From: Bacillota bacterium | GTDB lineage: Bacteria; Bacillota_A; Clostridia; Lachnospirales; Lachnospiraceae | DNA: 64,000 nt | Assembly (NCBI GenBank): GCA_023407175.1 | Contig: JAEYMU010000056.1 | Span: 414,482-478,481 of the forward strand | Reading direction: 5' to 3' | In this document: piece by piece, positions 1 to 64,000 of the stretch | How positions within the stretch are numbered: position 1 is the stretch's first letter | Layout of the letters: each line of letters begins with the position of its first letter | Notes under the pieces: generated by a model | Told to the model about the DNA's origin: nothing | Database searches by the model: none | What the model saw: only the letters and a program-made list of their open reading frames with translations | Program-made: the position numbers and the translations under genes

Positions 1-1193
1 ATCACATACATGACCTGAAAAAGCGCATTATGGCTCATATCCCTTTCGATTGTCAGCATCTCAATCATCCTCTCCAAGGGAAGGTCCTGATGCTCATAGG
101 CTTCCAGGGTAATTTTTTTCACCTGGCGCACCGTTTCCCGAAAGGTCGCCTGTTCGTTTAATTTTATGCGAATCGGGATCGTGTTTACAAAAAAACCAAT
201 GATATTTTCCAGCTCGGTTCTGTTTCTGTTGGCGATAGGAGAGCCGATGATGATATCCGTTTGTCCCGTATAGCGGTAAAGCAGTATAAAATAGGCCGCC
301 AGAGTAACCATGTACAAGGTCGCGTCCTCCTCGACGCACAGTTTGTTCAAATCCTTATACAGCTGCTCCGGCAGATCCTTTATGACGGTTGCGCCGCGAA
401 AGCTCCTGACCGGAGGGCGCGGTCTGTCCGTGGGAAGCTCCAATACCGGAATATCCCCCTCCAGCATACCTTTCCAATAGCGTTCATGCTCTTTGAAATG
501 CTCCGACTTTTCGCTGCTTCTCTGCCAGCAGGCAAAATCCGCATATTGAAGGACCAGGGGCTTCGCTTCAACCTGATGGTGATTTGACAGGGCCTCATAA
601 TTACTTTGCAGTTCATTGATAATGATATCCAGAGACCATCCGTCGCAGGCGATATGATGGATGTTCAGCAGAACATAATTCCTCTGGCCGCTCAGCATAA
701 ATAAATAAGCCCGGATTGGGAATTCCCTTTCCAAATCAAAGGGGAGCAGCGCTTTTTCCTTTATGAACGTTTCCCGAAGCTCTTTTTCACTCAGAGCATG
801 GTCTGTTAAATCATGGATTTGCAGACAAAGGGGTTCATAGGGATGGATGATCTGAACTGCTTCTTCCTTAATCATCCTGTAAGTCGTCCGCAGTATCTCA
901 TGCCGTTCCAGTAGTTTATTGACAGCCTGCTCCAGCAGTCCTGTATCCACCTCAAATTTCAGGCTGAATATGCAGGGAATGTTATAGGAGGGACTTTCCG
1001 GCTCCCACTGATATAAAAACCACAGGCGCTGCTGGGAAAAGGAAAGCGGAAATTCCTGCGGCAGGTTTTCCCGTGGAACCGGGCAAATCCCCTGCTTCAC
1101 AGCCTCCAGACTATTTTTAAAATAAATTCTGTCCATCAGAAGTTTCTTTTTCTCCGGTGGGAGAAGGTTTATACGTTCATAAACTTCATTCAT
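1..1193 (-). CDS. Non-ribosomal peptide synthetase, N-terminal condensation domain (partial, runs off the left edge)
   Basis: The frame is open from an ATG at 1193 to the window edge, giving 397 visible residues. After about 45 residues that include a short leader (INLLPPEKKKLLMDRIY), a condensation domain begins with SFSQQRLWFLYQWEPESPSY. It continues with the catalytic HHIACDG (residues 179-185) and the late motif IGFFVNT. The opening motif and the HHxxxDGWS form resemble LCL-type domains, which join two L-residues. This fits the upstream carrier module, which has no epimerase. The domain should condense the carrier-bound amino acid from the upstream A-PCP protein with the residue loaded by its own module, which lies outside the window. 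The gene starts 1 base after the stop of the upstream glycosyltransferase, so translation is probably coupled. The product and total module number cannot be seen. Identification as an NRPS condensation domain is secure. Confidence 0.93.
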   Translation of the reverse strand, partial: MNEVYERINLLPPEKKKLLMDRIYFKNSLEAVKQGICPVPRENLPQEFPLSFSQQRLWFLYQWEPESPSYNIPCIFSLKFEVDTGLLEQAVNKLLERHEILRTTYRMIKEEAVQIIHPYEPLCLQIHDLTDHALSEKELRETFIKEKALLPFDLEREFPIRAYLFMLSGQRNYVLLNIHHIACDGWSLDIIINELQSNYEALSNHHQVEAKPLVLQYADFACWQRSSEKSEHFKEHERYWKGMLEGDIPVLELPTDRPRPPVRSFRGATVIKDLPEQLYKDLNKLCVEEDATLYMVTLAAYFILLYRYTGQTDIIIGSPIANRNRTELENIIGFFVNTIPIRIKLNEQATFRETVRQVKKITLEAYEHQDLPLERMIEMLTIERDMSHNALFQVMYV

Positions 1194-1194
1194 A

Positions 1195-2493
1195 TTATTT
1201 CCTTCTTTCTTGCAACAGACTCATTAACTGTTCTCGCTTTGCGGGGCTTAGCATGTTAACCCTCCCAAGAATACCGCCGACTGCGGACGCAGGACCCATT
1301 AAAGGGTTAGAAACAGGCGCTTCGACGATTTCCTGAAAATACTGTTCAAATGCCTCAAAGCCCAGGGAAGTCTGGAAGGCCAGGGCCTTTTCATAGGAAG
1401 CCCTAGACAGGCTGTCATAATGTGCCCTGTCAGACAGGAGGCTTTCCAGTGCCACAATCCAGGGACCGAGCTCCTGCTTTGGAACCACGGGCTGGGCAAC
1501 GGTACCCATAAGAGAATAATCCGTGCTGTATTGCCTGATCGGTGCAACCGGCAGAATATAATCCAAACCCAGCTTGGCCTCAGGCAGCCCTCCCACATTG
1601 CTGGCAATGACCGGTATCCCCCGAAGCATGGCCTCAACCACAACCTGTCCAAAGGATTCTCCCCAGAGAGAGGGCATGAGAAAAACCTTGGTTCTTCTGT
1701 AGATATCATTTACATCCACCGAAGGCTTCAGCAGGGTTATATTCGGCGCCGCCTTCATCTCCTCCAGCTCATCTTCCCCCGTCGCCCAGGTCGGTACTGC
1801 CGCAAACTGCACCTTCGGCATACGTTCTGCAAGCTCACGAAGGATGCAAAAGCCCTTCAACGCAGAGGGGTTGATTACCGTTACATAGGGGTTATCAAAA
1901 TCAGCCAGATAAGGGAAGGGTCCCTGTCCATAGGAGGGAAAATAAATTACCCTGGACTCGACACCGGCCCATTTGCGGAAATAATTCTCCAAAAACCGGC
2001 TGACCGATATGATCCCCTGTAGTTTTTGAAACAGCCTAAGCTTATCCGGGTCCTCCTCGAAGCTGTCCGGTCCGAAGGGAAGGGTGGATTGGCTGTGTGC
2101 GATAAAGACAGCCCTCGTATCTAATTCCGTAACCGTTTCCAGCAAAAGATAGGGCTGCGTATCGGAAACCAGAGTAAGATCCGGCCGGAATTCCTCCACT
2201 GTCTTTTTTATAAAGGAGATAATCTTGAATTCACTGGTAACCGTGTAGGCATCTACTCCGCTGATACGTATATGGGTCAGGCTCTCCGTGCTTTCCAGGA
2301 GCTCCAGCTCCCCTGTTTTACTCTTTTTATTGATATATTCATTTTCATTAAACCCGGGAGGACTTAACAGAGGATTGATCACAAGACATTCATGCCCTCT
2401 CTTGGCCATCCATTCCATCAGGATTTTATTGGCTTTGTTAGCTCCTGCCCAGGGGTACAGATACCCCATGGATTGAATCAGCAGTAATTTCAT
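1195..2493 (-). CDS. GT4-family glycosyltransferase, second of a tandem pair in the NRPS operon
   Basis: The 432-residue protein has a GT-B fold layout. The N-terminal half starts MKLLLIQSMGYLYPWAGANKANKIL (glycine-rich acceptor-side loop). The C-terminal nucleotide-sugar half carries MPSLWGESFGQVVVEAM followed by GIPVIASNVGGLPEA, the EX7E-like block of retaining GT4 enzymes. No signal peptide or membrane segment is apparent, so it should act in the cytosol. It overlaps the stop of its upstream paralogue by 4 bases (ATGA) and sits 1 base before the NRPS start, so it belongs to the biosynthetic operon. The two paralogues share long identical blocks, which points to tandem duplication. Inference: it transfers a sugar to the peptide, the carrier-bound residue or the sugar placed by its twin. 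Donor and acceptor cannot be read from sequence. Confidence 0.88.
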   Translation of the reverse strand: MKLLLIQSMGYLYPWAGANKANKILMEWMAKRGHECLVINPLLSPPGFNENEYINKKSKTGELELLESTESLTHIRISGVDAYTVTSEFKIISFIKKTVEEFRPDLTLVSDTQPYLLLETVTELDTRAVFIAHSQSTLPFGPDSFEEDPDKLRLFQKLQGIISVSRFLENYFRKWAGVESRVIYFPSYGQGPFPYLADFDNPYVTVINPSALKGFCILRELAERMPKVQFAAVPTWATGEDELEEMKAAPNITLLKPSVDVNDIYRRTKVFLMPSLWGESFGQVVVEAMLRGIPVIASNVGGLPEAKLGLDYILPVAPIRQYSTDYSLMGTVAQPVVPKQELGPWIVALESLLSDRAHYDSLSRASYEKALAFQTSLGFEAFEQYFQEIVEAPVSNPLMGPASAVGGILGRVNMLSPAKREQLMSLLQERRK

Positions 2494-3791
2494 TTATTCT
2501 CCCCCGCTCTCATCAGCATTTCATACAGCCATCCACGTTTTTCAGGTGAAAGCATTTGAATCCGCTCCAGTGCCTTATTTGCAACAGAGCTGTCCGCCGG
2601 CTTGGGTCCCTTCCCGGGATAAGCCTCCACAATTTCCCTGAAATACTGTTCAAATGGTTCAAACCCCAGCTTTGAATGAAATTCTATCGCTTTCTCATAG
2701 GATTGCAGGGACAGTTCTTCATAGAAGGCTTTGTCATTCATCAGCCGGTCCAGAGCCCTAATCCACGGTTCCAAATCCTGTTCCGGCAAAACCGGGCGGT
2801 GAACACTCATCAGCAGCTCCTTTTCACTGATATATTCCCTGATGGGATTCACAGGCAGAATATAGTCAAGTCCCTGCTTGGCTTCGGGAAGTCCGCCTAC
2901 ATTGCTTGCAATGACCGGAATGCCGCGAAGCATGGCTTCTATCACCACCTGCCCAAAGGCTTCTCCCCAGAGGGAGGGCATTAAAAACACCTTAGTCTGC
3001 CGGTAAATCTCATCGACATCCTCTTCCGGTTTTCTGATTACTATATTTTCAATAGATTTTAATTCTGCCAGCTCCGCATTCGTGGTTGACCAGGTAATTA
3101 CTACGGCAAACTTAACCTTGGGAAAGCTTCCGGCAAGCCCGGTTATGATGGGAAATCCCTTGATTCCGGAGGGATTGATTGCCGTAATATAAGGATTGTC
3201 AAAGCTCCCAAGAAAGGGGAAGGGACCTTCTCCGTAGGACGGAAAGTAGATTCTTTTTGATTTCAGCCCCGCCCATTTCATAAAATACTCCTGTACATAA
3301 TCGCTGACACTGATAATTCCGTGAAGCTTTGTGTAAAGGTTAAACTTGTCCTTCTTCTCCTCGAAGCATTCCGGACCGAAGGGCAGCACTGTCTGACTGT
3401 GGGCCAGGCAGATTGCCCTGGTTTCCGTCTCCAATACAGCCTCCATCAGCAGGTGGGACTTGTCCTCGGAAATCAGGGTAATATCCGGCTTAAAATCCGC
3501 AACTGTCCTTCTGATAAAGGAAAAAATCTTATAATCTCCCTCCACCCGGTAGATGGTAACACCCTTCTTATGGATACCGGTAACATTTTCACTTTCTTCA
3601 AATATCTCGAATTCATTGCTGTTTCTTTTTTCATTAAAATATTCTTCAAAGCCTCCGATATATACCTCCGGAGTCACAACCATACACTCATGTCCCCTTG
3701 CGGCAAGCCCCTCCATCAAAATCCTGTTTGCCTTATGTGCTCCTCCCCAGGGATAAAGGTACTCCAACAGCTGCACCAATAATATTTTCAT
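2490..3791 (-). CDS. GT4-family glycosyltransferase, first of a tandem pair in the NRPS operon
   Basis: The protein has 433 residues and the same architecture as its downstream twin. It starts MKILLVQLLEYLYPWGGAHKANRIL and carries FLMPSLWGEAFGQVVIEAM followed by GIPVIASNVGGLPEA in the donor-binding half. The start at 3791 lies 37 bases after the stop of the A-PCP gene and its own stop overlaps the next start by 4 bases. Like its twin it lacks signal peptide and membrane segments. GT4 enzymes use nucleotide sugars with retention of configuration (family knowledge). Its place between an adenylation-carrier gene and a condensation-domain NRPS gene suggests sugar attachment during or after peptide assembly. 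A role in a separate cell-surface glycan would be surprising given the tight operon. Confidence 0.88.
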   Translation of the reverse strand: MKILLVQLLEYLYPWGGAHKANRILMEGLAARGHECMVVTPEVYIGGFEEYFNEKRNSNEFEIFEESENVTGIHKKGVTIYRVEGDYKIFSFIRRTVADFKPDITLISEDKSHLLMEAVLETETRAICLAHSQTVLPFGPECFEEKKDKFNLYTKLHGIISVSDYVQEYFMKWAGLKSKRIYFPSYGEGPFPFLGSFDNPYITAINPSGIKGFPIITGLAGSFPKVKFAVVITWSTTNAELAELKSIENIVIRKPEEDVDEIYRQTKVFLMPSLWGEAFGQVVIEAMLRGIPVIASNVGGLPEAKQGLDYILPVNPIREYISEKELLMSVHRPVLPEQDLEPWIRALDRLMNDKAFYEELSLQSYEKAIEFHSKLGFEPFEQYFREIVEAYPGKGPKPADSSVANKALERIQMLSPEKRGWLYEMLMRAGENK

Positions 3792-3828
3792 AATAATCCT
3801 CCATTCTGCTGCAAATCTCCAAATCTCC

Positions 3829-5748
3829 TTACTGTTCCTTCAGGATTGCCGCCAGCTCTTCTTCTGAAATTGCTTCCAGCTCCGCCAGGAGTCTTTCCAG
3901 CTCCTCCGGTGCATACTGTTCCAATTGATAACGCTCAATCGCGGCGGCTGTCTGCTCCACCGTCGGAGTGGTTTCAAAGAGAACATGAAGGGGGATTTCC
4001 GTTCCCAGTGTCGAGCGTATCCGGGATACAATTTGGGTAGCCATTAAGGACTGTCCTCCCAAATCAAAAAAATTATCGCAAACCCCTACCCGGTCTATTT
4101 TTAATACCTCACACCAGATTTGTGCAATCGTCTCCTCCATCTGGTTTCTGGGCTCAATATAAACACTGTCGATATCCGGTCTGACATCCTCCATGGAAGG
4201 GAGGCGGTCCTTATCCAGCTTACCGCTTTCCAAAACAGGAATTTCATTGATAAACATAAATCTTGAAGGTACCATATAAGCTGGCAGCTTGGCTCTTAAA
4301 AAAGTTTTAATCTCCTTAATGCCAGGCCTTTGGTCTAAGGCAGTGATAATATATGCATAGATTTGTTTATTTTTAAAGCTGTCATCCACAATGGTAATAA
4401 CTGCATCCATAATGCCGGGATATTCCCGAAGGAGCTTGATAATCTCATCCAGATCAATTCTTAAGCCTGCGATCTTAACCTGATTATCCTCTCTTCCCAC
4501 CCACTCAAAGGAAGTCTCGGAAACTCTCCGGCAGATATCCCCTGTCTTATAGAGCCGCTCACTGATCCCCTCCATAAAGGGATTCTTGACGAAGCTTTCC
4601 TCCGTCAGAGAGGGCAGGTTCAGATAGCCCCGGGCAAGGCCGACTCCGGCAACACAAAGCTCACCTGCTTCACCGACTGGCACAGGATTAAGCTGCTTGT
4701 CCACAAGATAAAGCGCTGTACCGGCAATCGGTTTTCCCAGGGAAATGGCCTCCTCTGTCAGACTGCATCGATTCATCGAGACACATACGGTGCATTCCGT
4801 CGGCCCATAGGCATTGATAAAATTCAGCTTTGATTCCCAGTATTCGATCAGCTTTCTGGTGCAGGCCTCTCCGGCGGAGACAAGTGTTTTCAAATCAGGC
4901 AGCGCCCCCTGGGGCAAGGTATTCAAAACTGATGGTGTAAGTGTAACCACTGATATTTTTTTATGTAATAAAACCTCGTAAAGGTCTTCTCCCAGGTAAT
5001 ACCCTTTCCCAGGCAGGAGTACCAGTGTTGCTCCTGCAAGCAGCGTTGTGAATATCTCCGACACCGAGGCGTCAAAGGAAACGGAGGCATATTGCAAAAC
5101 CCGGTCCTGCTTACCTAGCTCAAAGACATTGATTTGCTCCAGTACCATATTCGGAATTCCCCGATGTTCTACCATAACGCCCTTTGGTCTCCCGGTGGAC
5201 CCTGAGGTATATATGACATACGCCAGATTATCCCTTCCATTCAGACAGGGCAAATTCTCCTTAAGCTCATACTTTAGAGTCTCCTTTTCCCTGTCCAGAT
5301 ACAGACAGGTTACCGGTGCTTTCGTATCCAGTTCCGACAGATTCTTTTGCAGGTCGGAGGAGGTAAGGATTAATTCCAGCCCTGTATCATTGATAATATA
5401 CTCCTGACGTTCCTTCGGATAGGTTGTAGAAATCGGGGTATATGCGGCACCTGCCTTGAATACGGCAAGAATCGATATAATCAATTCCGGGCTTCGCTCC
5501 AGATAAATACCGATCATTGCCTCCGGCCCTGCTCCGAGCCTTCTAAGATACCTGGCAAGCTGATTTGCTCTCCCGTTTATCTCCCCATAACTAAAAACCT
5601 CGTCCCCATACTCAATACAGGGCAAATCCGGATTCTCCCCGGCAATATCCTGGAAATACTCATAGATCGGCTTAAAGCCTTCGGATAAATTACTCTCCTC
5701 CCGGACAAGTACCTGTCTGATTTTCAATTCTTCCAATGTGTTATTCAT
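3829..5748 (-). CDS. Stand-alone NRPS adenylation-carrier protein, predicted to load tyrosine
   Basis: The 639-residue protein has an adenylation domain (about 1-525) and a peptidyl carrier domain (about 530-605). Core motifs are YTSGSTGRPKG (180-190), FDASVSEIF, NAYGPTECT (312-320), YKTGD (400-404) and the lysine in ESGKLD (K510). The carrier motif is DNFFDLGGQSL, with the phosphopantetheine serine at 567. Aligned to GrsA, the ten specificity positions read D-A-S-T-V-A-A-V-C-K, which matches a published tyrosine code as I recall it. There is no condensation domain before it, so it can start a chain or load in trans. The start has a strong site (GGAGGAG) and the gene is first in the operon, about 100 bases from a consensus promoter. 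Its C-terminal tail is acidic and helical and could dock the next synthetase (inference). Confidence 0.95.
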   Translation of the reverse strand: MNNTLEELKIRQVLVREESNLSEGFKPIYEYFQDIAGENPDLPCIEYGDEVFSYGEINGRANQLARYLRRLGAGPEAMIGIYLERSPELIISILAVFKAGAAYTPISTTYPKERQEYIINDTGLELILTSSDLQKNLSELDTKAPVTCLYLDREKETLKYELKENLPCLNGRDNLAYVIYTSGSTGRPKGVMVEHRGIPNMVLEQINVFELGKQDRVLQYASVSFDASVSEIFTTLLAGATLVLLPGKGYYLGEDLYEVLLHKKISVVTLTPSVLNTLPQGALPDLKTLVSAGEACTRKLIEYWESKLNFINAYGPTECTVCVSMNRCSLTEEAISLGKPIAGTALYLVDKQLNPVPVGEAGELCVAGVGLARGYLNLPSLTEESFVKNPFMEGISERLYKTGDICRRVSETSFEWVGREDNQVKIAGLRIDLDEIIKLLREYPGIMDAVITIVDDSFKNKQIYAYIITALDQRPGIKEIKTFLRAKLPAYMVPSRFMFINEIPVLESGKLDKDRLPSMEDVRPDIDSVYIEPRNQMEETIAQIWCEVLKIDRVGVCDNFFDLGGQSLMATQIVSRIRSTLGTEIPLHVLFETTPTVEQTAAAIERYQLEQYAPEELERLLAELEAISEEELAAILKEQ

Positions 5749-5846: not shown

Positions 5847-5857
5847 TTATGACATAA
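5847..5857 (-). promoter_or_regulatory. Near-palindrome TTATGACATAA beside the NRPS promoter
   Basis: An 11-base near-perfect palindrome touches the downstream edge of the -10 box, around the expected transcription start. This is a usual place for a repressor site. The half-site GTCATAA recurs at 5993-5999 in the same intergenic region. No regulator gene lies next to it in the window, so its role is only inferred. Confidence 0.3.
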
Positions 5858-5885
5858 TTATACTTCCAGTTTTTGCATGAGTCAA
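5857..5885 (-). promoter_or_regulatory. Sigma-A promoter of the NRPS-glycosyltransferase operon
   Basis: On the minus strand TTGACT (5885-5880) and TATAAT (5862-5857) are separated by exactly 17 bases. The transcript would start near 5850 and leave a leader of about 100 bases before the start codon at 5748. No other good promoter was seen within the operon. Confidence 0.75.
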
Positions 5886-6085: not shown

Positions 6086-6127
6086 AAAAAAATACTGCCG
6101 GGCAAATAAGGAATTTACCCGGCAGTA
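6086..6127 (-). terminator. Rho-independent terminator of the GNAT gene
   Basis: The arms TACTGCCGGG (6093-6102) and CCCGGCAGTA (6118-6127) pair perfectly. On the minus strand the stem is followed by a run of seven T. It lies 43 bases past the stop of the acetyltransferase gene. Confidence 0.85.
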
Positions 6128-6170
6128 CAATCTATCAGTATTATATTTGTTTTCATAAAACAAACAGGTA

Positions 6171-7261: not shown

Positions 7262-7277
7262 TATGGAGGGATATATT

Positions 7278-7640
7278 ATGACAGAAATTCAGTTAGGCAT
7301 GATTGAAGCTCGCTATGCAGACATGATTTGGAAGCGCGAGCCGGTAACTTCTTCGGAATTGGTAAAGCTCACGGCAACCGAGTTCAACTGGAAGCGAACT
7401 ACCGCACACAATGTGCTGCGGCGGCTGTGTGACAAGGGATTATTCCGAAATGACAATGGTACGGTAACATCGCTGATTTCCCGGCAGGAGTTTTATGCCC
7501 TGCAAAGCAAAAGGTTTGTGGAAGACACATTTAACGGCTCTCTTCCGACATTTATTGCTGCCTTCACCAAAAACAGCACACTAACCCCGGAGGAAGCGGC
7601 TGAAATACGACAAATGATTGACCATGCAGAGGGACGCTGA
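7278..7640 (+). CDS. BlaI/MecI/CopY-family transcriptional repressor
   Basis: The protein has 120 residues, the usual size of the family, when started at 7278 (GGAGGG 7 bases upstream). A winged helix-turn-helix spans about residues 5-75, with the recognition stretch WKRTTAHNVLRRLCDKGLF. This matches the W-x-x-x-T-V-x-T-x-L-x-R-L-x-x-K-G motif of BlaI. The C-terminal part (FIAAFTKNSTLTPEEAAEIRQMI) is the family's dimerisation and cleavage region. It lies directly behind two operator-like repeats and 2 bases before an M56 metallopeptidase gene, the usual repressor/sensor pairing. Inference: it represses its own operon until the partner peptidase triggers its loss. No beta-lactamase or PBP gene is in the window, so the regulated function may not be beta-lactam resistance. 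Confidence 0.92.
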   Translation: MTEIQLGMIEARYADMIWKREPVTSSELVKLTATEFNWKRTTAHNVLRRLCDKGLFRNDNGTVTSLISRQEFYALQSKRFVEDTFNGSLPTFIAAFTKNSTLTPEEAAEIRQMIDHAEGR

Positions 7641-7642
7641 CG

Positions 7643-9331
7643 ATGGATGCATTTTTTTTGAAGCTGCTGAATATGAACATTGCCACAAGCTGGCTGATTA
7701 TGGCGATATTTGTGCTGCGACTGTTTATGAAAAGGACCCCGAAGCGGATTGCGTACATACTTTGGGGGATGGTTGCGGTCCGTCTGATTTTTCCGTTCTC
7801 TTTTGAAAGCGTATTCAGCTTGATACCGAGTGCGGAAACCATACCGGTTCAAGGTGTTTTTGCGGATAATTCTGATGCTGCAAATAACCCGTATCATTTT
7901 CAGCTGCAAACCGGTATTCAGGCTATCGATCGGGCCGTTAATCCTGTTACCCGGAAAACGACCGGCTCCTCGATGCGTTCAGGCATTGAAATCCTTGCAT
8001 GGATCTGGCTGGCAGGAGCTGTCCTGTTATTCCTGTATGCAATTATCAGCTATCTGTGGATGCGGCGCAGGGTGCGGGAGGCTGCTCTTTTGCAGGATAA
8101 CATCTGGCTCTGTGATGCCGTGAAATCTCCGTTTATTTTAGGCATTATCAGACCCCGGATTTATCTGCCCTCCGGTATAGCCGAAGAACAGATGAAATAT
8201 GTAACCGCTCATGAGCGGACTCATTTAAAACATAGGGATCATTGGTGGAAGCCGCTGGGATTTCTACTGCTGGCGCTATATTGGTTCAATCCGCTGGTAG
8301 GAGCGGCGTATCTTCTGTTCTGCCGGGATATTGAACTTGCCTGCGATGAAGCGGTAATCAAAAATATGAAGCTTGATGAAAAGAAAGCCTATTCCCATGC
8401 ACTGGTATCCTGCAGTATGCAGCGGAACATGGTGATGGTTTGCCCCCTTGCTTTCGGTGAGGTCGGCGTAAAGGAAAGGATTAAAGCTGTGTTAAATTAT
8501 AAGAAACCTGCGTTTTGGACTGTTGTAGCAGCCATTGCTGTCTGCATTATTGTTGCAATTTGTTTCTTAACGAATCCAAAGGAGCAGGATAAACCCAATG
8601 AGACGCCGTCGCAGGAAACCGATGCTTCGGAATACGACAAATCTATAACCGAACCGCTGGAAGAAACCGATGATTCCCGACACAACGAACCTATAGCAGA
8701 ACCGTCGGAGGAAACCGATGATGCGGAATACAGCGATCCTATAGCAGAACCGTCAGAGGAAACCGACGCTTCCGGATACGACAAGCTTATTGCCATGGCA
8801 AGAGATGCGCTCGAAAATTTTGACGGTAACTATCCGGAAGAGCAGCCCTTCAGCAGCGTAATTTATCAGAACTGGGACTATGAAACGCTTGGTTATCTGA
8901 TAAGAGATCTGGATGGAAATGGCATTGATGAACTCATATTCGGCGCAAATACTGATGGCTGGGATAAAGATGGTGGCTGGGATGGCATCGTCTATGACAT
9001 CTATACGACAGTAAACGGTGAAGTGTTCCGTGTGCTGGACGGATGGGAACGAAACCGATATTATCTCTGTGAAAACGGCTGCATTGCCAATGAGGGCTCA
9101 AGTAGCGCTTTTGAGTCCAGCTACAGCTATTATCGATATAATGGAACCGAATTGACCCTGGTGGAATCTGTTTTATATAACAGTCTGCATGATGAAGAAA
9201 ATCCATGGTTTTATTCAACCGAGGAGGAACCTGATATTAATAATGCCGAACCGATCAGTACAGACAAAGCCTCTGAGATTATGAATAAATATGTACATGA
9301 ACATCCACAATACACACCCTTTGTTGAATAA
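7643..9331 (+). CDS. M56-family (BlaR1-like) membrane metallopeptidase with a non-PBP C-terminal sensor region
   Basis: The 562-residue protein has hydrophobic segments near 12-28, 36-56 and 117-138, and the zinc motif HERTH (190-194) with ELACDE (231-236), diagnostic of M56 peptidases. Further hydrophobic segments lie near 204-226 and 291-309. After the last comes a 16-residue acidic repeat rich in EPSEETD (about 325-380). The final, presumably extracellular, 180 residues contain DLDGNGIDEL (422-431), an EF-hand or FG-GAP-like loop, and many aromatic residues. The SxxK, SxN and KTG motifs of the BlaR1 penicillin-binding sensor are absent. It is 2 bases after the BlaI-type repressor and should cleave or signal to it. 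The sensed ligand is unknown; a metal ion or a carbohydrate is possible. Confidence 0.88.
   Translation: MDAFFLKLLNMNIATSWLIMAIFVLRLFMKRTPKRIAYILWGMVAVRLIFPFSFESVFSLIPSAETIPVQGVFADNSDAANNPYHFQLQTGIQAIDRAVNPVTRKTTGSSMRSGIEILAWIWLAGAVLLFLYAIISYLWMRRRVREAALLQDNIWLCDAVKSPFILGIIRPRIYLPSGIAEEQMKYVTAHERTHLKHRDHWWKPLGFLLLALYWFNPLVGAAYLLFCRDIELACDEAVIKNMKLDEKKAYSHALVSCSMQRNMVMVCPLAFGEVGVKERIKAVLNYKKPAFWTVVAAIAVCIIVAICFLTNPKEQDKPNETPSQETDASEYDKSITEPLEETDDSRHNEPIAEPSEETDDAEYSDPIAEPSEETDASGYDKLIAMARDALENFDGNYPEEQPFSSVIYQNWDYETLGYLIRDLDGNGIDELIFGANTDGWDKDGGWDGIVYDIYTTVNGEVFRVLDGWERNRYYLCENGCIANEGSSSAFESSYSYYRYNGTELTLVESVLYNSLHDEENPWFYSTEEEPDINNAEPISTDKASEIMNKYVHEHPQYTPFVE
8615..8794 (+). repeat. 48-bp in-frame tandem repeat in the M56 peptidase gene
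   Basis: The sequence GAAACCGA starts a new unit at 8615, 8663, 8711 and 8759, an exact 48-base period (16 residues: ETD....YDxxIxEPxE). The fourth unit is partial. The repeat forms a flexible acidic linker between the last membrane segment and the extracellular domain. Copy number may vary between strains. Confidence 0.85.
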
Positions 9332-17890: not shown

Positions 17891-20254
17891 ATGTCATTTA
17901 ATAAATTAAAGCTTAATCAAAAGCTATATTTCGGTTTTGGTATCGTAATACTTCTTATGGTTATATTGATTGGATATACCTATGTTAACTACAACACACA
18001 GGTGGACGCCGTGGAAATCAACCTGCATACCTATCAGGTAATGAGCGAGGCAGACGGTATTTTAGAAAGTCTGTTGAATATGGAAACCGGTGCAAGGGGC
18101 TTTGCCCTTACAGGCAAAGAGGAATTCTTAGAACCGTACAATAATGGCAAGACGGAATATGAACAGCATTATGAAGAAATAAAGTCCTTAACCACTAAAA
18201 ATTCTTCACAACAGGATAGACTGCTTCAATTGCAGGAGCGGTATGAAACCTGGTATGAGTGGGAATCGAATAAAATCGTGGACGGAAGAAGAAATGTTAA
18301 TAACGGCCAGATGAGCATGGATGCTCTTATTTCATTGGTCCAGACGAATACCGGCAAAAATGAGATGGACAGCATACGGCTTATTGTTAAGGATATTATT
18401 AAGGAAGAACAGAGATTGCTGGATATAAGGGATCATGCTTTAAGAAGCACACAGAGGGCAACCGCATATGCAATTATAATCGGCGGAATATTAGCCGCCT
18501 TACTGGCAGTTCTTATATCCTTATTCACCGCCAGAAGTGTCTCAAAGCCTGTAAAGCTTCTGATAAAGGCTACTAAAGAAATAACGGATAAAAATTATCA
18601 ATCCTCCATCGAACTGAAAACAGATAAGGAATTGGGTGTTCTGATTGAACGTTTTAATGAGATGCAGAATGCAATTCTTCTGCGGGAGGAACAGTTGGAG
18701 AAGAAGAACGAAATCCTCAAGTCCCAGATGGTTGAGGTCAATGAGGCAAACCGGCTGAAAAGCCAATTTTTAGCCAACATGTCACACGAGCTGCGAACGC
18801 CTCTTAACTCAATCATTGGTTTTACTACCCGTGTATTAAAAAAGAGCGGTGACTGTCTGCCGGAAACTCAGAAGGAAAACCTGACTATTGTAAAGGAAGA
18901 GGCCCAGCATCTGCTGGAGCTCATAAACAGCCTTTTGGACTATTCCAAGATTGAAGCAGGAAAAATGGAAGTACATATCGAAGCCTTTAATCTTGTCAAT
19001 GTGGTCAATGAGGTATATCTTATGACAAATACACTGGCCGAGGGCAGAAATATTCAATATACGCAGGAGCTTCCCAGTGATGATACTCTCATAATTATCA
19101 GCGACAGAATAAAAATCAAGCAGATTATGATTAATTTGTTAAGTAATGCTTTCAAATATTCTGATAAGGGCACCATAACACTATCCCTAAAGCGGGAATC
19201 CAATTCCTGTTATATTCGTGTACAGGACCAGGGTATCGGAATATCTCCGGAAAACATAGATAATATTTTTGATGAATTTCGCCAGGTGGATGGCACCTAT
19301 ACTAGAAAGGTGGGCGGTACAGGTCTCGGCCTCTCGATTACAAAAAAGCTCACCCAAATGCTGGGCGGCAAAATAACGGTCACCAGTACCCTTGGTGAGG
19401 GAAGCTGCTTCACAGTAGTTTTACCCGTTGATTATTTTGAAAAAAACACTCCAAAGGAAGCTTCCGTACCGGAAAGCAAACCAACAAAGGCCGGTAAGAG
19501 GGTTGTCTGCATTGACGATGATTTCAATGTGCAAAGGCTCTATTCCCAGTATCTCGGCGAGCATAATTTTGAGATCATAAAGCTAAACGGTCAGGAAAAT
19601 GTTGTTGCCGAGATCATTGAACTGATGCCGGATATAATTATCCTGGATATTCTCCTCCCTCACAGGGATGGCTGGGAGATATTGAGCGACTTAAAGAACA
19701 ATGCAAGGACAAAAAAGATTCCCGTGATTATGGCTTCCGTACTTAGTGAGAAGAATCTGGCCTATCAGATGAAAGCAGATGAATTTCTCATAAAACCCGT
19801 TACACAGGAAGAGCTTATTGATACCATTACACGCACACTTTTTGATAAAACAGCCATTGATGTACTGGTTGCCGATGATGATGAAAACTTTCTTAATCTG
19901 ATGGAGCAGTTCTTAAGGGAAGAAGCCCTTGCATACCGGTTTGCCAGGGATGGTGAAGAAACCCTCCGGCAGATGCAGCACAAAAAACCGGATATCCTTA
20001 TCCTGGATTTAATGATGCCAAAAAAAGATGGATTTTCTGTGCTGGATGAGATAAGAAGTACCCCGGATATAAAGGATACGCCTGTAATTGTTGTAACATC
20101 CAAGGATTTGACCAATAAGGAAAAGGAAGAGCTTCAAAGCAGGTCAAGTATGGTTATTCAAAAGTCGGGAGTTATGATTGAACAGGTTATGGATATTTTA
20201 ATAGTTAAAATCAAGGAGAAATCAAATCATGACAAAAAAAGTTCTGCTGGTTGA
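17891..20254 (+). CDS. CHASE3 hybrid histidine kinase with two receiver domains
   Basis: The 787-residue protein has a membrane segment at about 13-33 and a CHASE3-type extracellular domain (34-185) with METGARGFALTGKEEFLEPY. A second membrane segment spans about 190-213, followed by HAMP (214-265). The HisKA box SQFLANMSHELRTPLNSIIGF has H299. The ATPase region carries NLLSNAFKYSDKG and GTGLGLSI. Two receivers follow (about 535-650 and 655-775), with phosphorylatable aspartates in ILDILLP and ILDLMMP. It probably autophosphorylates in response to an external cue and passes phosphate through its own receivers or to the next gene. That DivK-like receiver gene overlaps it by 26 bases. The layout resembles the PleC side of a PleC-DivK-PleD pathway. 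Signal unknown. Confidence 0.93.
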   Translation: MSFNKLKLNQKLYFGFGIVILLMVILIGYTYVNYNTQVDAVEINLHTYQVMSEADGILESLLNMETGARGFALTGKEEFLEPYNNGKTEYEQHYEEIKSLTTKNSSQQDRLLQLQERYETWYEWESNKIVDGRRNVNNGQMSMDALISLVQTNTGKNEMDSIRLIVKDIIKEEQRLLDIRDHALRSTQRATAYAIIIGGILAALLAVLISLFTARSVSKPVKLLIKATKEITDKNYQSSIELKTDKELGVLIERFNEMQNAILLREEQLEKKNEILKSQMVEVNEANRLKSQFLANMSHELRTPLNSIIGFTTRVLKKSGDCLPETQKENLTIVKEEAQHLLELINSLLDYSKIEAGKMEVHIEAFNLVNVVNEVYLMTNTLAEGRNIQYTQELPSDDTLIIISDRIKIKQIMINLLSNAFKYSDKGTITLSLKRESNSCYIRVQDQGIGISPENIDNIFDEFRQVDGTYTRKVGGTGLGLSITKKLTQMLGGKITVTSTLGEGSCFTVVLPVDYFEKNTPKEASVPESKPTKAGKRVVCIDDDFNVQRLYSQYLGEHNFEIIKLNGQENVVAEIIELMPDIIILDILLPHRDGWEILSDLKNNARTKKIPVIMASVLSEKNLAYQMKADEFLIKPVTQEELIDTITRTLFDKTAIDVLVADDDENFLNLMEQFLREEALAYRFARDGEETLRQMQHKKPDILILDLMMPKKDGFSVLDEIRSTPDIKDTPVIVVTSKDLTNKEKEELQSRSSMVIQKSGVMIEQVMDILIVKIKEKSNHDKKSSAG

Positions 20255-20600
20255 AGATAATCCCAACAATATGCGTCTGATCAGGCAACTTATGGAGGAC
20301 ATCGATGAGGATATCGAATTAATTTGCGCAGACCAGGGAAAGACCGCCATACAGCTTGCAAAGGATATTCCTTTGAAGCTGATATTAATGGATATATCAC
20401 TTCCTGATATGAATGGTATAACAGTTACAGATAAATTGAAGGAATATCCTCATCTGAAGAATATTCCCTTTATCGCTGTTACTGCATATGCAATGACCCA
20501 GGACGAACAAGGCTTCAGAGAAACCTTTGATGACTATATATCCAAGCCGATTGATGATGATATCTTTACAGATAAAATAAAGCAATGGATAAGAGGATAA
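20229..20600 (+). CDS. Single-domain response regulator, DivK/CheY-like
   Basis: The 123-residue protein is a receiver domain only. It has VLLVEDNPNN at the N-terminus, the phospho-acceptor D55 in ILMDISLPDMNG, T in AVTAYAM, and K in YISKPID. The DNPNNMRL stretch and DISLPDMNG are typical of DivK-like relay receivers. It has no output domain, so it acts by protein contact or phosphotransfer. The start lies inside the 3' end of the kinase gene (26-base overlap), with AAGGAG about 9 bases upstream. The diguanylate cyclase follows 6 bases after its stop. Confidence 0.93.
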   Translation: MTKKVLLVEDNPNNMRLIRQLMEDIDEDIELICADQGKTAIQLAKDIPLKLILMDISLPDMNGITVTDKLKEYPHLKNIPFIAVTAYAMTQDEQGFRETFDDYISKPIDDDIFTDKIKQWIRG

Positions 20601-20606
20601 TAATAA

Positions 20607-21500
20607 ATGAGTGAGAAAATTCTAATCGTCGATGATAACAAAAATAATTTAAGGCTGCTTCAGAACATTCTGGAGGATGAGGACTTTGAAGTGTTTGCAA
20701 CCAGCAATAGCCTGGAGGTTGTTGGCATGACCGTAGAGGTAAAGCCCTCCGCAATCCTCCTGGATGTGATGATGCCCGGACTGGATGGCTTTGAGGTCTT
20801 CAGTCTGCTGAAAAAAGAACCTACGGCTAAGGATATACCGGTTATAATGATTACAGCCAGAACAGATGCCCAGGATTTAAAGACGGCTTTCGACCTTGGC
20901 GTCTTTGATTATATCAAAAAGCCCATTGATGAAGTTGAAGTTATTGCACGTGTTAAATCCTCCTTAAGATTTAAAGAACAGCAGGATAAATTAAAGAAAA
21001 TGGCCTTCACGGACGGATTAACCGGCCTGTTTAATCATGCCCTGCTGATTGAACTGTTTGAAAAAGAATATAGGAAGCTGAAATGCAATAAAAGCAATAT
21101 AGCTTTTATGATGCTGGATATCGATTATTTTAAAAAGGTTAACGACACCTACGGTCATCCGGCCGGAGACATGATCCTTAAGCAGATTGCGGAAATTCTT
21201 ATAAATCACACCAGATTCAGTGATATTGTCGGCAGATACGGAGGGGAAGAATTCGGAATATTCCTTCCCGAAACCAATGAACAGGAGGCCTGCCTGATCA
21301 GTGAAAAAATACGTCAGACCGTTGAAAGCAACTATTTTGACATTGGCAGTGAAAAAATAAAAATAACCTTGAGTATCGGTATTTGTTCATCGGAATACGT
21401 CGAAACCGTTAAATATAAGGAAGTAATAAAAAAGGCCGATGAAGCCCTCTATCAAGCGAAAATGAACGGCCGGAACCGGGTGGAGCTCTTCAGAGCGTAA
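20607..21500 (+). CDS. PleD-like response regulator with GGDEF diguanylate cyclase
   Basis: The 297-residue protein has a receiver (1-120, phospho-acceptor D53 in LLDVMMPGLDG) and a GGDEF domain (about 130-295). The active-site loop is GGEEF at 212-216, with DIDYFKKVNDTYGHPAGD for metal and substrate binding. A product-inhibition I-site, RFSD, sits exactly five residues before GGEEF. The enzyme should make cyclic di-GMP from GTP when phosphorylated and be feedback-inhibited. It is the last gene of the three-gene operon, so the cue sensed by the hybrid kinase probably sets local c-di-GMP. No PilZ or EAL protein is in the window. Confidence 0.95.
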   Translation: MSEKILIVDDNKNNLRLLQNILEDEDFEVFATSNSLEVVGMTVEVKPSAILLDVMMPGLDGFEVFSLLKKEPTAKDIPVIMITARTDAQDLKTAFDLGVFDYIKKPIDEVEVIARVKSSLRFKEQQDKLKKMAFTDGLTGLFNHALLIELFEKEYRKLKCNKSNIAFMMLDIDYFKKVNDTYGHPAGDMILKQIAEILINHTRFSDIVGRYGGEEFGIFLPETNEQEACLISEKIRQTVESNYFDIGSEKIKITLSIGICSSEYVETVKYKEVIKKADEALYQAKMNGRNRVELFRA

Positions 21501-21518
21501 TCCGTTGTACGTATTCCT

Positions 21519-22031
21519 TCAGATACTCCACTTCTCCAACGGTGCCTGTTCCAGCTTTAACAGCTGTATTTTTTTATCGATTCCGCCTGCATATCCTGTC
21601 AGACTACCATTAGCACCGACCACACGATGACAGGGAACGATAATGGAAATCGGATTGTGTCCGACAGCTCCCCCCACAGCCCGTGCAGAGGTATGACCTT
21701 CGCTTTCCATATCACTTAGCTGTTGTGCAATACTGCCGTAAGTAACCACGGTTCCATAGGGAATTGTACAAAGTATCTCCCACACTGCCTGACGAAACGT
21801 ACTGCCCCTTGGAGCAAGCGGCACAGAAAAATCCGGTTTCTTTCCAGCAAAATAGACATCCAGCCACTCCTTCGCAAGATCAAAGACGGGAAGCTTCTGT
21901 GTCTCGGCTTGATTCTCCAATGTAGCAGCATAATATTTTTGTCCCTCCAGCCAAAGACCTGTTAATTTTTGCCCGTCGCTTGCCATGGTCAGTTGACCGA
22001 CGGGCGAAGGTATCTTATATATATAATCCAT
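21519..22031 (-). CDS. ogt: Methylated-DNA--protein-cysteine S-methyltransferase
   Basis: The 170-residue protein has the C-terminal MGMT domain: GSTFRQAVWEIL, IPYGTVVTYGSIA, and the active site IIVPCHRVVG with the acceptor cysteine at 134. It transfers the alkyl group from O6-methylguanine to itself in a suicide reaction. The N-terminal half is the small Ogt-type lid domain without Ada zinc cysteines. It converges on the cyclase gene with only 18 bases between the stops. Confidence 0.95.
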   Translation of the reverse strand: MDYIYKIPSPVGQLTMASDGQKLTGLWLEGQKYYAATLENQAETQKLPVFDLAKEWLDVYFAGKKPDFSVPLAPRGSTFRQAVWEILCTIPYGTVVTYGSIAQQLSDMESEGHTSARAVGGAVGHNPISIIVPCHRVVGANGSLTGYAGGIDKKIQLLKLEQAPLEKWSI

Positions 22032-22192
22032 CTTTCATTTCCTTTCCTGGCTTCTACTCCTTGTCTATGTTTGTTTTAAAGCTTTCATGGTCCAAGTTCA
22101 GTATATAATAAATCCCAAAAACTTGCAAGAAACCTTGTACTATAAGAAAAATATTCAACAGAACTTAAAAACAAAGCAATTTCTCGTTTATA

Positions 22193-22226
22193 TAAAAAAA
22201 GCGCTGCTTATTTTTTAGGCAGCGCT
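22193..22226 (-). terminator. Terminator of the coiled-coil ABC exporter operon
   Basis: On the minus strand AGCGCTGCCT and AAGCAGCGC pair around an A-rich loop, followed by TTTTTTTATA. It lies 15 bases past the permease stop. Confidence 0.85.
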
Positions 22227-22240
22227 CTATTACTATTTTA

Positions 22241-25200
22241 CTAATCTACTGATTTTAAAGATTCCAGCATATCAATATTTTTAATTCGCGGCTTCATGCA
22301 CTGGTTGACAATCCAGGTAAACAGCATTGTCAGAATTGCTGCTCCAAGATATCCCAGCAGGGTCAGCTCACGGGTCAGCAATATCATATCCGGTTCTACC
22401 GTTGCTACAACTGCCCGGTATAGGAAAATTCCGCCGAATAGACCAAGCAGGCATCCGATGATTGACAAAATGACAGTTTCACGGAAGATATAGCTGTAGG
22501 TCTCTCTGTCATAAAAGCCCAATACCTTCAAAGTTGCCAGCTCTCTCTGACGCTCGCCTACGTTGATGTTGGTCAGGTTATAGAGAACAATAAAGGCAAG
22601 AAGTCCTGCCGCAATAATCAGAATCCAGATTATATTGTCAACACTGTTAATGGAGGTTTTGATATTTCCCATTAAATCATCCGTAAAGGAAATAACACCG
22701 ATTCCGGTAGCAGCGGATAAGTAGGACTTTATCTCATCGTTGCTGTGGCTGTCATTTGCAATTACAAAGAACTGGTTGTATTCCGGCTCTTCCCCAAATA
22801 CTTCATGATAGGCGCTGCTGCCCAGATACAAATAATTGAAGGCATAATTCATAGTGATGCCGGTGATGGTTACCGTGTGGTATTCATTATCATCCAGATA
22901 TTTTACCGTGATCGTATCACCGATACCCACCTTCAGATTCATAGCCAGCTTTTCTGTTATCACAGCACTGTCTTTGCTGAATGCCAGCTCCTTTTTCGAC
23001 TGGGGATCAGATAAAGTTACCATATCAGAAAAGCCTTCCGTATCCCTGGCAGCTACAATATAAATATTGTAAGTATCTCCATCCTCTTTCTTCAAGCTGG
23101 CCTCCGCAGATTTTCGCAATACCTCTGTAGCTTCTTCAAAATAAGTATCATCTGACAGAAGTGAAACCAGCTCATCGGAAGGCTTATCATCATTAAATCC
23201 TACCGTTACATTATAATGGAATATGCCGCCAAACTGCTTATCAAGTATGGTTCTTACCGCATTCTTTGCACCGAAGGCCGTTACCACCAGAGCCGTACAG
23301 CCAAGAATACCGATTAGTGTCATAATCAGACGCTTCTTATTCAACCCCAGGTTTCTGACCGTTAGCTTCTTGGTAAAGGAAAGCCGGCTCCACACCGGTT
23401 TTACATATTCCAGGAATACCCTCTTTCCGCTTTTCGGAGCCTTCGGACGCATCAGCTGTGCAGGTGATTCTATCAGTGATTTCTTGGCGGCAATGCCGGT
23501 AGAAAGAGTGATGATAAAAACGGTTGCAAAAATCGAAAGAAATGCGATGCCGTAATAAAAATCGGGTACCAGCTCCGGCAGTGCAAAAACGATACCGTAT
23601 GCATTCCAGATAATTGTGGGAAGCAGCCAAAAGCCGGACAGTACCCCCACCACACTCCCAATCAAGCTTGCGGAAGCAGCATATTTTAAATATCTGCCTG
23701 CAATTCTTGTATTGGAATACCCAAGTGCTTTAAAGGTGCCGATTAACGTCCTGTCCTCATCCACCATTCGTGTCATGGTGGTTAAGCAGACAAGCGCCGC
23801 TACGAGGAAGAAGATAACCGGGAATACCGTCGCCAAATCGTGCATACGGTCTGTATCGTCATAATAGGTCGCAAAGGATTCGTTCATATTGCGGTCAAGA
23901 ACATACCATTTCGGCTCTCCCAGCTCGGATAATTTCGTTTCCGCGGCTTCGATTTCCTGCTCGGCATCTGACAGCTTGCTATAGGCTTCCTCTTTTTTAT
24001 CGTCGTATTCCTGTTGCTTTTTTACAAGCTCCTCTTCTCCGTCCTTAATCTTTTCCTGAGCACTTTCCAGCTTTGCCCATGCATCCGCAAGCTTTGCATC
24101 CGCTTCAGATTTCTGCTTATTATATTCCGAAAGTCCGGCTTGATAGGATTTTTTTGCGGAGGTAATCTCATTTTCTGCCTTCTCTAGCTGTACTGCGGCA
24201 TAATCCAATTCCTTCGCCTTCTCAGAATATTCCATTTCCGCGCTATCCAGCTTATTTTTTGCTTCGGCCAGCTCCATCTCTGCTGTTTTTATCTTCTCAC
24301 TGGCAACGTTGTATTCCGACCATTTCTTCGCCAGCTCACTTTTTGCCGATACCAGTTCCTCCAATTGGTCATACTGCTCTCCCAATTCCTCTTTCATGGA
24401 TGGCAGGGCGGCTTCGATTTGCTCCATGGTCATACCGGTTGTACTTTCAGCCGTCTTCACCTTTGCCTCATACTGGGCCTGCGCTTTATCAAGACTCGTC
24501 TTATTTTCAGCAAGGAGGGCCTTTTGACTGGTAAGTGTTCTGGCCTTGCTGTTATACTCGCTCCAGCCGCTGTCAAGCTCTGTCCGCGCTTCCTTTAACT
24601 GTGCTTTAGCTGTACTGAATTCTGTCTGCTTTACAGCAAGCTCCTTCTCTCCCTCGGATATCTGTGCCGCTGCATCCTCAAGCTGGGCCTTTGCGTCCGC
24701 CAGCTTCTGGTCCGCGTCTGCTTTTCGTGTATTATATTCCGAAAGTCCGTCCGCATATTCCTTCTTCGCATCAGCCAGGGCTGCCTCTCCATCCTCAAGC
24801 TGGTTTTTTGCATCCGCCAGTTTATCATCTGCCTCTTTTTGGGCATCGGCGTACTCCTGCTTAGCCTTCGTCAAGTCAGCCTGGAACTGGTCATACCTTA
24901 GGGTTTCCCGTTGGCCGGCAAGTGTTTCAAGCCTGTTAACCGTATCTTCGATGTAGTCAAAATATTTTTCCTCAAAGGCATTTATCTCCTTTGCCCCCTG
25001 AATCGTTACATAAAGCTCGGTATAGCCGTCAACAATAAAATTATCCCGGGGTACATAAAGGACATAATCGAGCATACCGTTTCCCACTGAGGTATTTCCC
25101 TGCATAAATGACAGGTAGTAAGGAGACTCTGCAATTCCTACCACAGTATATTCCATCCTGCCAAGAGTATCGGGAAGTGCATCATTGGAGGCTGCATCCA

Positions 25201-32297: not shown

Positions 32298-32668
32298 ATA
32301 ACCACCTCCTAAATTAAGTAATAAACACCTCTCATCAATTCCTCCATTATAGACAAGCAAGTATTTGGCTGAGGGCTTATCTATAAGGCAGTATTAATTA
32401 TACAATAAATTACATAAAATAGGAAGCTATATTTCCTTATATTTACAATCGGGGCAAGAATCACCGCAAAATGGCCTTGCCCATTCGTAATTATTAAAAT
32501 CGCCGCCAGCCTTGAACCATACGGCTTGAATTTCTCAAAACGTATGTGTTATACTATTCGTTAGATTACTCGAACATTACATTAACACATTGCTTCTTAT
32601 CAAGAAATTGAGAAGCATCCCGTTTTTCGGGTATTACTGTATTTAAAACAGGCAGGTGAGCAAAGAGT
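32298..32668. other. Intergenic region between xylanase and AraC genes
   Basis: On the minus strand a TATAAT box (32351-32346) without a clear -35 lies upstream of the xylanase. Behind it a GGAGG precedes a tiny frame, MRGVYYLI, whose TAG stop overlaps the xylanase ribosome site. On the plus strand lies the AraC promoter (32526-32555) and then a GCTTCT-N13-AGAAGC hairpin near 32590-32614. Nothing else was seen. Confidence 0.5.
32526..32555 (+). promoter_or_regulatory. Probable promoter of the AraC-family gene
   Basis: TTGAAT (32526-32531) and TATACT (32550-32555) are 18 bases apart, about 110 bases before the start codon. The leader contains two small hairpins, one of them CCCG-N5-CGGG. Confidence 0.55.
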
Positions 32669-63368: not shown

Positions 63369-64000
63369 TTATAAGCCGACCGCCTTGCGTTCAAATACCG
63401 GAGAGTATTCGATTGGTGCATCGACTGATACCGTTATGCCGCCGGTATACTTTTCTCCGGTAGAGGTCAATATCCACTCACCGGCAGGGAGATATACGTC
63501 TCTCTTATATTCATTCAGATGAAGAATCGGCGCAACAAGATATTTGTCACCAAACATATACTGATCCTGAAGTTCCCAACATTTCTCATCTTCCGGGAAT
63601 TCATAGAACATAGTGCGAACCAATGGAGAGCCATTCGTATGAGCTTCTTCATAAAGCTTTTTGATATATTCATGCATGCTGATACGGATATCATAGTATT
63701 TCTTCATGATCTTATAATTGTCTTCCCCATAACTCCAAAGCTCATTTGGCTGGCCTGTATGAAGGTAACCGCCACCCCAGTCTCTGTTATCTAGCGGTGG
63801 AATATTGTAAGGGCCTCTGTCCCCGTGCATACGCAGTACAGCTGAATACACAGCGAACTGATACCAACGAATTAGGAGATTTCTGAAATCAGGATCATTT
63901 ACATCATCTGTCATGAAGCCGCCGATATCTGTCGTCCACCAGGGAATGCCTGCAAGTCCCATGTTCAGACCGCACTGTAACTGATCAGCGAAGGCTTCAA
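63369..64000 (-). CDS. GH31-family glycosidase, C-terminal part (runs off the right edge)
   Basis: The frame is open to the window edge and reads in from outside; an ATG at 63962 lies inside the catalytic domain and is not the start. The first visible residues, LQCGLNMGLAGIPWWTTDIGGF, hold the acid/base aspartate region of GH31 (TDIGGF). HGDRGPYN and the beta-sandwich C-terminal domain follow (PEDEKCWELQDQYMFGDKYLVAPIL, VYLPAGEWI). About 210 residues are visible. It is an alpha-glucosidase or alpha-xylosidase, probably acting on xyloglucan or starch fragments. The visible region does not decide which. No signal peptide can be judged. Confidence 0.93.
   Translation of the reverse strand, partial: EAFADQLQCGLNMGLAGIPWWTTDIGGFMTDDVNDPDFRNLLIRWYQFAVYSAVLRMHGDRGPYNIPPLDNRDWGGGYLHTGQPNELWSYGEDNYKIMKKYYDIRISMHEYIKKLYEEAHTNGSPLVRTMFYEFPEDEKCWELQDQYMFGDKYLVAPILHLNEYKRDVYLPAGEWILTSTGEKYTGGITVSVDAPIEYSPVFERKAVGL

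Follow-up and report, generated by a model that had tools for sequence, protein, structure and literature searches.

Four neighbouring genes at one end of a 64,000-nucleotide stretch from a Lachnospiraceae bacterium (contig JAEYMU010000056.1, positions 414,482 to 478,481; hereafter the window) appear to encode the start of a non-ribosomal peptide synthetase (NRPS) assembly line in which the starter is glycosylated on-line through a docking code that two glycosyltransferases (GTs) would share with the next condensation (C) subunit, a reading to which we assign a probability of roughly 0.55. The first subunit, an adenylation (A) domain followed by a carrier (PCP) and hence called A-PCP, would activate an aromatic amino acid, most likely tyrosine, and load it onto its own carrier. 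The C-terminal tails of the glycosyltransferases GT1 and GT2 and the N-terminal leader of the C subunit could all bind the acidic tail of this same A-PCP carrier. On the carrier-bound tyrosine, GT1 and then GT2 would each place a sugar or together assemble a disaccharide, after which the C subunit would dock and couple the glycosylated starter to the next residue, such that glycosylation on the carrier would precede the first peptide bond. Tail binding, the order of reactions, tyrosine as both substrate and acceptor, and the sugars are all parts of the scheme that we infer, while gene order, enzyme family, the shared tail, the conserved aromatic code, and the likeness of the A-PCP tail to a solved docking domain are observed features. 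The docking-like tails common to GT1, GT2, and the C subunit, which the initial annotation had not noted, suggest that the GTs work on the starter residue while it is bound to the carrier.

Gene row and domain content

The four genes run in the same direction on the minus strand, from 5748 to 3, in the order A-PCP, GT1, GT2, and C-domain NRPS. A-PCP (3829..5748, 639 residues), assigned from the open reading frame (ORF) list, Pfam, and its adenylation code, comprises an A domain and one carrier without a preceding C domain and matches AMP-binding (5e-86) and PP-binding; its carrier (3937..4134; PF00550, residues 539–604) retains an intact LGGQSL motif. GT1 (2490..3791, 433 residues; Pfam, alignment, and model) and its paralogue GT2 (1195..2493, 432 residues; ORF list, Pfam, and tree) are GT4 glycosyltransferases that are 57% identical and both match Glycos_transf_1/Glyco_trans_1_4. 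The C subunit (3..1193), at least 397 residues long and cut by the window edge, matches Condensation (3e-102), carries the HHxxxDG motif intact as HHIACDG, and has ordinary NRPS C domains as its best solved relatives in a PDB search. The core of an NRPS assembly line, an A domain, a carrier with the attachment serine, and a C domain with HHxxxDG, is present in this row. A gap of 37 bases separates A-PCP from GT1, GT1 and GT2 overlap by 4 bases (ATGA), and 1 base lies between GT2 and the C subunit. The order, strand, and junctions given in the initial annotation agree with the ORFs and the Pfam matches.

A docking-like element on both GTs and the C subunit

GT1 and GT2 end with, and the C subunit begins with, the same docking-like element of about 25 residues, two helices with the pattern RI..LSPEKR..LL..L. 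In GT1 it occupies residues 404–433 (2490..2582), as judged from the alignment of GT tails, the predicted model, and a scoring matrix, and the matrix also identifies the GT2 tail, GGILGRVNMLSPAKREQLMSLLQERRK (1195..1278), and the leader of the C subunit, MNEVYERINLLPPEKKKLLMDRI... (1110..1193). The C leader scores 22.8 bits with this matrix, which was trained on GT tails only. In the GT1 model the tail helices comprise residues 404–412 and 416–430 with M413-L414-S415 between them, and P416, the proline of LSPEKR, opens the second helix, which is net positive in 35 of 39 GT tails. ERI..LSPEKR..LL..L or a near variant ends the 40 best stand-alone GTs except P0034, which gave no tail, so that the matrix was trained on the other 39. 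The element also lies between the GT and a C or thioesterase (TE) domain in most fusion proteins.

A tail was scored against the 99th percentile of each sequence's own shuffles, and these shuffles rule out a chance match. The element exceeds this threshold in 51 of 71 held-out stand-alone GTs (P0041–P0120, of which six were left out for length or fusion, 74 were kept, and 71 were scored), in 52 of 65 GT-to-C linkers (66 in all, 65 from long relatives plus P0081, with P0355 too short to score), and in 45 of 55 stretches after the last GT of fusions, as compared with 11 of 58 stretches between tandem GTs and 1 of 6 cis PCP-to-C linkers. A stricter count at more than 8 bits retains 39/65 GT-to-C linkers, 26/57 stretches after the last GT (the 57 including two from the stand-alone GT search set), and 27/71 held-out tails, with 0/58 between tandem GTs. 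Because the tail is frequent at GT ends and in linkers and rare between tandem GTs, sequence suggests roughly one copy per polypeptide rather than one per catalytic domain. Splitting a GT–C fusion would leave one copy, yet GT1, GT2, and the C subunit each have one, which argues for a function of the tail on all three neighbours.

Several of these counts weigh against a shared docking code. Three of the 74 held-out GTs leave no room for a tail, 20 of the 71 scored and 13 of the 65 GT-to-C linkers are at or below threshold, and the 11 positive stretches between tandem GTs depart from the one-copy rule. At least 20 residues precede the C domain in 12 of 62 C-first proteins, with more than 8 bits in 2 of these 12, and the comparison with cis PCP-to-C linkers covers six cases. 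As few C-first leaders score, the element does not mark C subunits in general, and a docking element before every C domain finds no support in these small samples (1/6 and 2/12).

Fusions place the GT ahead of a C or TE domain

Long GT-containing proteins were collected with search words taken from the GT portion of a query of 1469 residues, and the best 120 of 175 were analysed, five 'C' matches that follow a carrier having been read as epimerisation (E) domains and dropped before counting. This type of GT comes first in 118 of the 120, and the other two start with another GT type. A C domain follows the GT in 65, a TE label from Pfam is present in 51 of the 55 that lack C, and in none of the 120 does a carrier, A, or C domain precede the GT. 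Architectures of the C type include GT-C-A-PCP, GT-C-A-PCP-TE, and GT-GT-C-A-PCP, some with an E-like domain, and in five proteins of the 65, more than 200 residues labelled as another GT type separate the GT from C. The position of the GT before C is therefore far beyond a one-off, and the window GTs are members of a large family linked to NRPSs. Since the fusions begin with the GT, continue with C or TE, and have no carrier, A, or C domain ahead, the GT slot would lie after an upstream subunit, with its presumed carrier, and before the next C or TE. In the predicted model of one GT-tail-C protein (P0338), linker blocks score below 55 and the overall predicted template modelling score is 0.52, and the way it places the domains was disregarded.

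In other phyla these parts occur as the fusions GT-(element)-C-A-PCP or GT-GT-(element)-TE, and the GT-GT-TE proteins would do at the end of the line what we propose for its start. Versions with these parts fused or side by side are present under the names Paenibacillus, Fontibacillus, Anaerocolumna, Acidobacteria, Pyrinomonadaceae, Thermoanaerobaculia, Chloroflexia, and Myxococcaceae, and the layout, which the initial annotation set against known anaerobe pathways, is not peculiar to an anaerobe.

Two groups of fusions have features of their own. Seven proteins (P0306, P0312, P0313, P0324, P0330, P0333, and P0337) combine GT4 with a second, UDP-glucosyltransferase-like domain, which lies between GT4 and C in five. 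P0244–P0301, about 940–1110 residues long and in some cases named Acidobacteria or Bryobacterales, comprise a GT, mostly in two copies, and a TE with the docking-like element mostly before it, a release subunit that carries glycosyltransferases.

Glycosylation of non-ribosomal peptides, as in the glycopeptide antibiotics, is known to act after release. GT1 and GT2 could likewise be ordinary post-assembly tailoring enzymes on a released peptide, with tails that remained as linker relics when GT–C fusions split, an explanation that we consider unlikely. A simple split does not account for the three copies in the window, the tail is above threshold in most held-out stand-alone GTs, and fusion of a GT ahead of C and TE would be odd for an enzyme that acts after release.

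The acidic carrier tail and the PAX docking domains

In on-line glycosylation the partner of the element would be the acidic C-terminal tail of A-PCP, IERYQLEQ...EELAAILKEQ (3829..3939), which resembles the C-terminal docking domain in 6TRP by PDB profile search and by charge. Among 177,635 PDB sequences the best match of the A-PCP tail profile is 6TRP (E 8.1e-5, aligned as YQIETFFAQDIESVQKELENLSEEELLAMLN), and the single tail of the window finds it at E 0.014. A reversed profile, used as control, reaches E 0.022 at best with an unrelated peptide, and a match of the forward profile to 6TDN (E 0.044) was set aside as within the noise of that control. In all 35 sequences compared, A-PCP is acidic over its last 36 residues. 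Judged by similarity to the solved example, A-PCP has a probable C-terminal docking domain after its carrier.

According to a review, 6TRP is a tethered complex of the PaxB C-terminal and PaxC N-terminal docking domains at a PCP/C junction, with a single helix as the N-terminal partner (PMC9113145), and the N-terminal docking domain of PaxB, which pairs with PaxA, consists of a helix N3–S8 that a kink at P10 separates from the basic helix L11–A24, of which R14, K15, and R16 pair with acidic residues of PaxA (PMC8251938). The PAX system of Xenorhabdus (PaxA, PaxB, and PaxC; 6TRP, 7B2F, and 7B2B) appears to be like that of the window in having an acidic helix after the carrier and a basic helical partner, rich in leucine, with which the next C subunit begins and which is kinked and two-helical in PaxB, with salt bridges between helix and partner (PMC8251938, PMC9113145). 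The window differs in that the partner-like element is also placed at GT C-termini, and, in fusions, between the GT and C or TE.

The element on the GTs and the C subunit appears to resemble the PaxB N-terminal docking domain, with a two-helix GT1 tail that recalls the kinked form of PaxB and a weak register test that provides support and not proof. The named PaxB residues reach 6.4 bits with the GT-tail matrix when placed in the expected register and less than -14 in the 12 others, such that 1 of 13 registers fits, and 315 of 20000 shuffles are as good over all registers. COM-type docking is ruled out, as COM docking domains are reported at E/C subunit junctions (PMC9113145), and here the upstream A-PCP has no E domain and there is no E/C junction.

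Other results on the two tails weigh against a specific pairing. Searches of the PDB with the GT tail returned no docking domain, one being empty and another giving one irrelevant match, and the 60 matches shown of 62 to the GT tail profile are unrelated, with a designed repeat protein at the top (8e-11). Kinship with the PAX docking domains therefore rests on the pattern and the PaxB test. The A-PCP tail matrix also finds this tail type at the C-terminus in 16 of 32 fused proteins and in 32 of 77 other proteins that end in a PCP, so the type is widespread and not confined to GT systems, and several A-PCPs of Paenibacillaceae stop before the last helix of the window tail.

Shared by three neighbours, the element could associate with itself, and docking helices often form bundles (PMC9113145). 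The tails might accordingly link one GT with the other, or the GTs with the C subunit, in a stable complex and not engage the carrier tail. Given that the opposite charge and the match to a solved docking domain both lie with the A-PCP tail, we regard such a complex as improbable.

Conserved company and starter code

The closest named relatives are from A. jejuensis (Anaerocolumna; GT1 82%, A-PCP 78%), by which the host is Anaerocolumna-like. The initial annotation would fall if a public database contained this cluster with a known product; near-identical genes are in public sequence (A-PCP 99%, GT2 99%), but no known product was met. Because 18 of 37 A-PCP-type relatives (P0121–P0157) match one of the best 45 GT relatives (P0001–P0045) in the exact size of the longest contig, their association is not chance, and the operon core appears to be conserved in Bacillota. 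Equal size is a proxy for a shared contig and does not read operons directly, which counts against the proposed assembly line. By the same proxy six contigs hold two GTs, and since each pair comprises one GT1-clade and one GT2-clade member in a tree of 52 rows, GT1 and GT2 appear as paralogues that separated long ago, in keeping with two sugar transfers in succession. Among the 45 GT rows, one GT each falls to the matched contigs with the names Paenibacillus, Fontibacillus, or Pristimantibacillus, which may carry a second, more distant GT.

The adenylation code of A-PCP reads DASTVAAVC from its motif positions in GrsA numbering. DAST[VI]AA[VI]C recurs in 38 of the 40 A-PCP-type sequences compared, the window included; the exceptions are P0156, with a poor alignment and without the usual motifs, and P0158, which has 937 residues and another code. 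Two further GT/starter pairs with matched contig sizes (P0050 with P0161, 11,240; P0094 with P0160, 6,089) have starters with the aromatic-like code DAFTIAAVW and a carrier tail above threshold in both. Adenylation codes vary widely among 48 A domains of the GT fusions. The A-PCP code is aromatic and probably for tyrosine. Against the tyrosine assignment, no paper that prints the code was found in the partly accessible literature searched.

The conserved aromatic code upstream suggests a fixed acceptor side chain, and this speaks against a further possibility, in which the sugar itself is the acceptor and C or TE moves the aminoacyl chain onto a sugar made or held by the GT to give aminoacyl sugars or glycosyl esters. 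The GT does stand ahead of both C and TE in fusions, and a Streptomyces relative sits with a stand-alone carrier, a TE, and an HAD-IIIC protein. The kinship of the window C domain with ordinary NRPS C domains speaks for coupling of the usual kind, and we hold this possibility to be highly doubtful. That the GTs act on an unrelated substrate such as a cell-envelope glycan, with an incidental operon link, is very improbable, since the GT4 fold is indeed common to many envelope and thiol-pathway enzymes but fusions to NRPS domains in many lineages argue strongly against it, as does the repeated company of A-PCP.

The Streptomyces locus (L002, Streptomyces sp. NBC_00441 plasmid, 18560-24261) encodes a stand-alone carrier, a GT that by its N-terminus looks like the GT1 type, and a tail-less GT4 relative, each overlapping by 4 bases, and the neighbours of this trio are a TE, an HAD-IIIC protein, sugar-nucleotide genes, and a lone C domain; it is possibly a carrier-bound glycosylation pathway of another kind. 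On a plasmid of Niveispirillum cyanobacteriorum (L003, 19992-24083) another tail-less GT4 relative lies beside an ATP-grasp/acetyltransferase fusion and a GINT1_N-like protein, with no NRPS gene among the ten ORFs scanned. Both GT4 relatives lack the tail and lie outside modular NRPSs as far as examined, and two loci do not suffice as a control. The sole match of a scan of genome contigs, in Patescibacteria (L001), was a generic GT4 with 39% identity over 73 residues in a genome where no C domain was found, and was dropped. No relative was found in a scan of viral sequences.

GT1 as an enzyme

The predicted GT1 model has a GT-B fold with a mean predicted local distance difference test score of 91, and its E-x7-E pair is E277/E285, with E277 invariant and E285 present in at least 90% of 73 aligned sequences. 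Fold and motif are those of a GT4 retaining glycosyltransferase. Matches to GT4 structures of the MshA, BshA, HepE, and PimA type, enzymes with other acceptors, span at most residues 1–394 of the model, leaving the tail outside. Most GT4 enzymes place an arginine that touches the donor phosphate at the position of Asn206 in GT1 (2490-3791), which is invariant in the 73 aligned relatives within the motif N-P-S/C-x-x-K-G and may be a sign of an unusual donor site.

Operon start and surroundings

Upstream of A-PCP on the minus strand lies a promoter-like site, TTGACT-17-TATAAT (5857..5885; consensus match only, 11/12), one of 19 sites with at least 9 matches in the stretch, where 11.2 are expected. 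A terminator-like hairpin of 16 pairs (6092..6128; consensus match only), the strongest of 9 such sites with 7.7 expected, follows the preceding GNAT gene. With this hairpin behind the GNAT gene and the promoter-like site after it, A-PCP is probably the first gene of the operon and, as it also lacks a C domain, would be a starter module.

Pfam scans covered 30 of the 54 ORFs of the window, at a cut-off of 1e-8 in most scans, and in these 30 no second NRPS gene and no NRPS-type TE, MbtH, phosphopantetheinyl transferase, or sugar-nucleotide enzyme was found; glycoside hydrolases (GH), transporters, and regulators were. A GH10 with CBM4/9 (30108-32360), a GH5 (61563-62972), and a piece of GH31 (63369-63962) are plant-fibre enzymes and fit a fibre-degrading anaerobe. 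Divergent from the GNAT gene before the operon, a 125-residue ORF directly precedes an M56 (BlaR1-type) peptidase gene (7263-9331), and the two look like a BlaI/BlaR-type regulatory pair.

Discussion

The proposal in the initial annotation that a single operon attaches sugars to a non-ribosomal peptide fits the gene row and the GT-before-C fusions, glycosylation itself being predicted from them. The GTs of glycopeptide antibiotics and other non-ribosomal peptides also place sugars on NRPS products, often on aromatic residues, but are stand-alone, act after release, and belong to another GT family, whereas here GT4 enzymes with docking-like tails lie in or beside the assembly line. The slot between a carrier and the next C domain is one that a tailoring domain is known to take. 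E domains occupy it fused behind the carrier, in contrast to this GT, which is fused ahead of C or stands alone.

The lincosamide synthetase (LmbC, LmbT) is similar in having NRPS parts and a GT-like protein in one cluster, and neither a GT before a C domain nor a shared docking tail is described in the portion of that report available (PMC4351081). A GT domain between carrier and C is not described in the accessible parts of the literature searched (PMC12283262, PMC3360062, PMC8251938, PMC4598715, PMC4787774, PMC4351081, PMC3039948, PMC9113145, and PMC7973640), a weak absence, as most subscription literature lies outside this coverage.

Docking domains and the glycosylation of non-ribosomal peptides are already known, and what is new, to our knowledge, is a glycosyltransferase that bears the docking-like element of the next subunit. 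More tentatively, and at somewhat less than even odds, on-line glycosylation may be general, with GT4 enzymes that bear the docking code of the next C or release subunit and take turns on one carrier, in separate, tandem, and fused forms across Bacillota, Acidobacteriota, Chloroflexota, and Myxococcota, and in Bacillota it would mark the aromatic starter residue. If so, a short tail would direct a glycosyltransferase to a chosen carrier, providing a modular handle for placing sugars on peptide drugs. Glycosylated products would be predicted for many uncharacterised clusters of soil and anaerobic bacteria, and glycosyltransferases would join the tailoring enzymes that docking domains may recruit.

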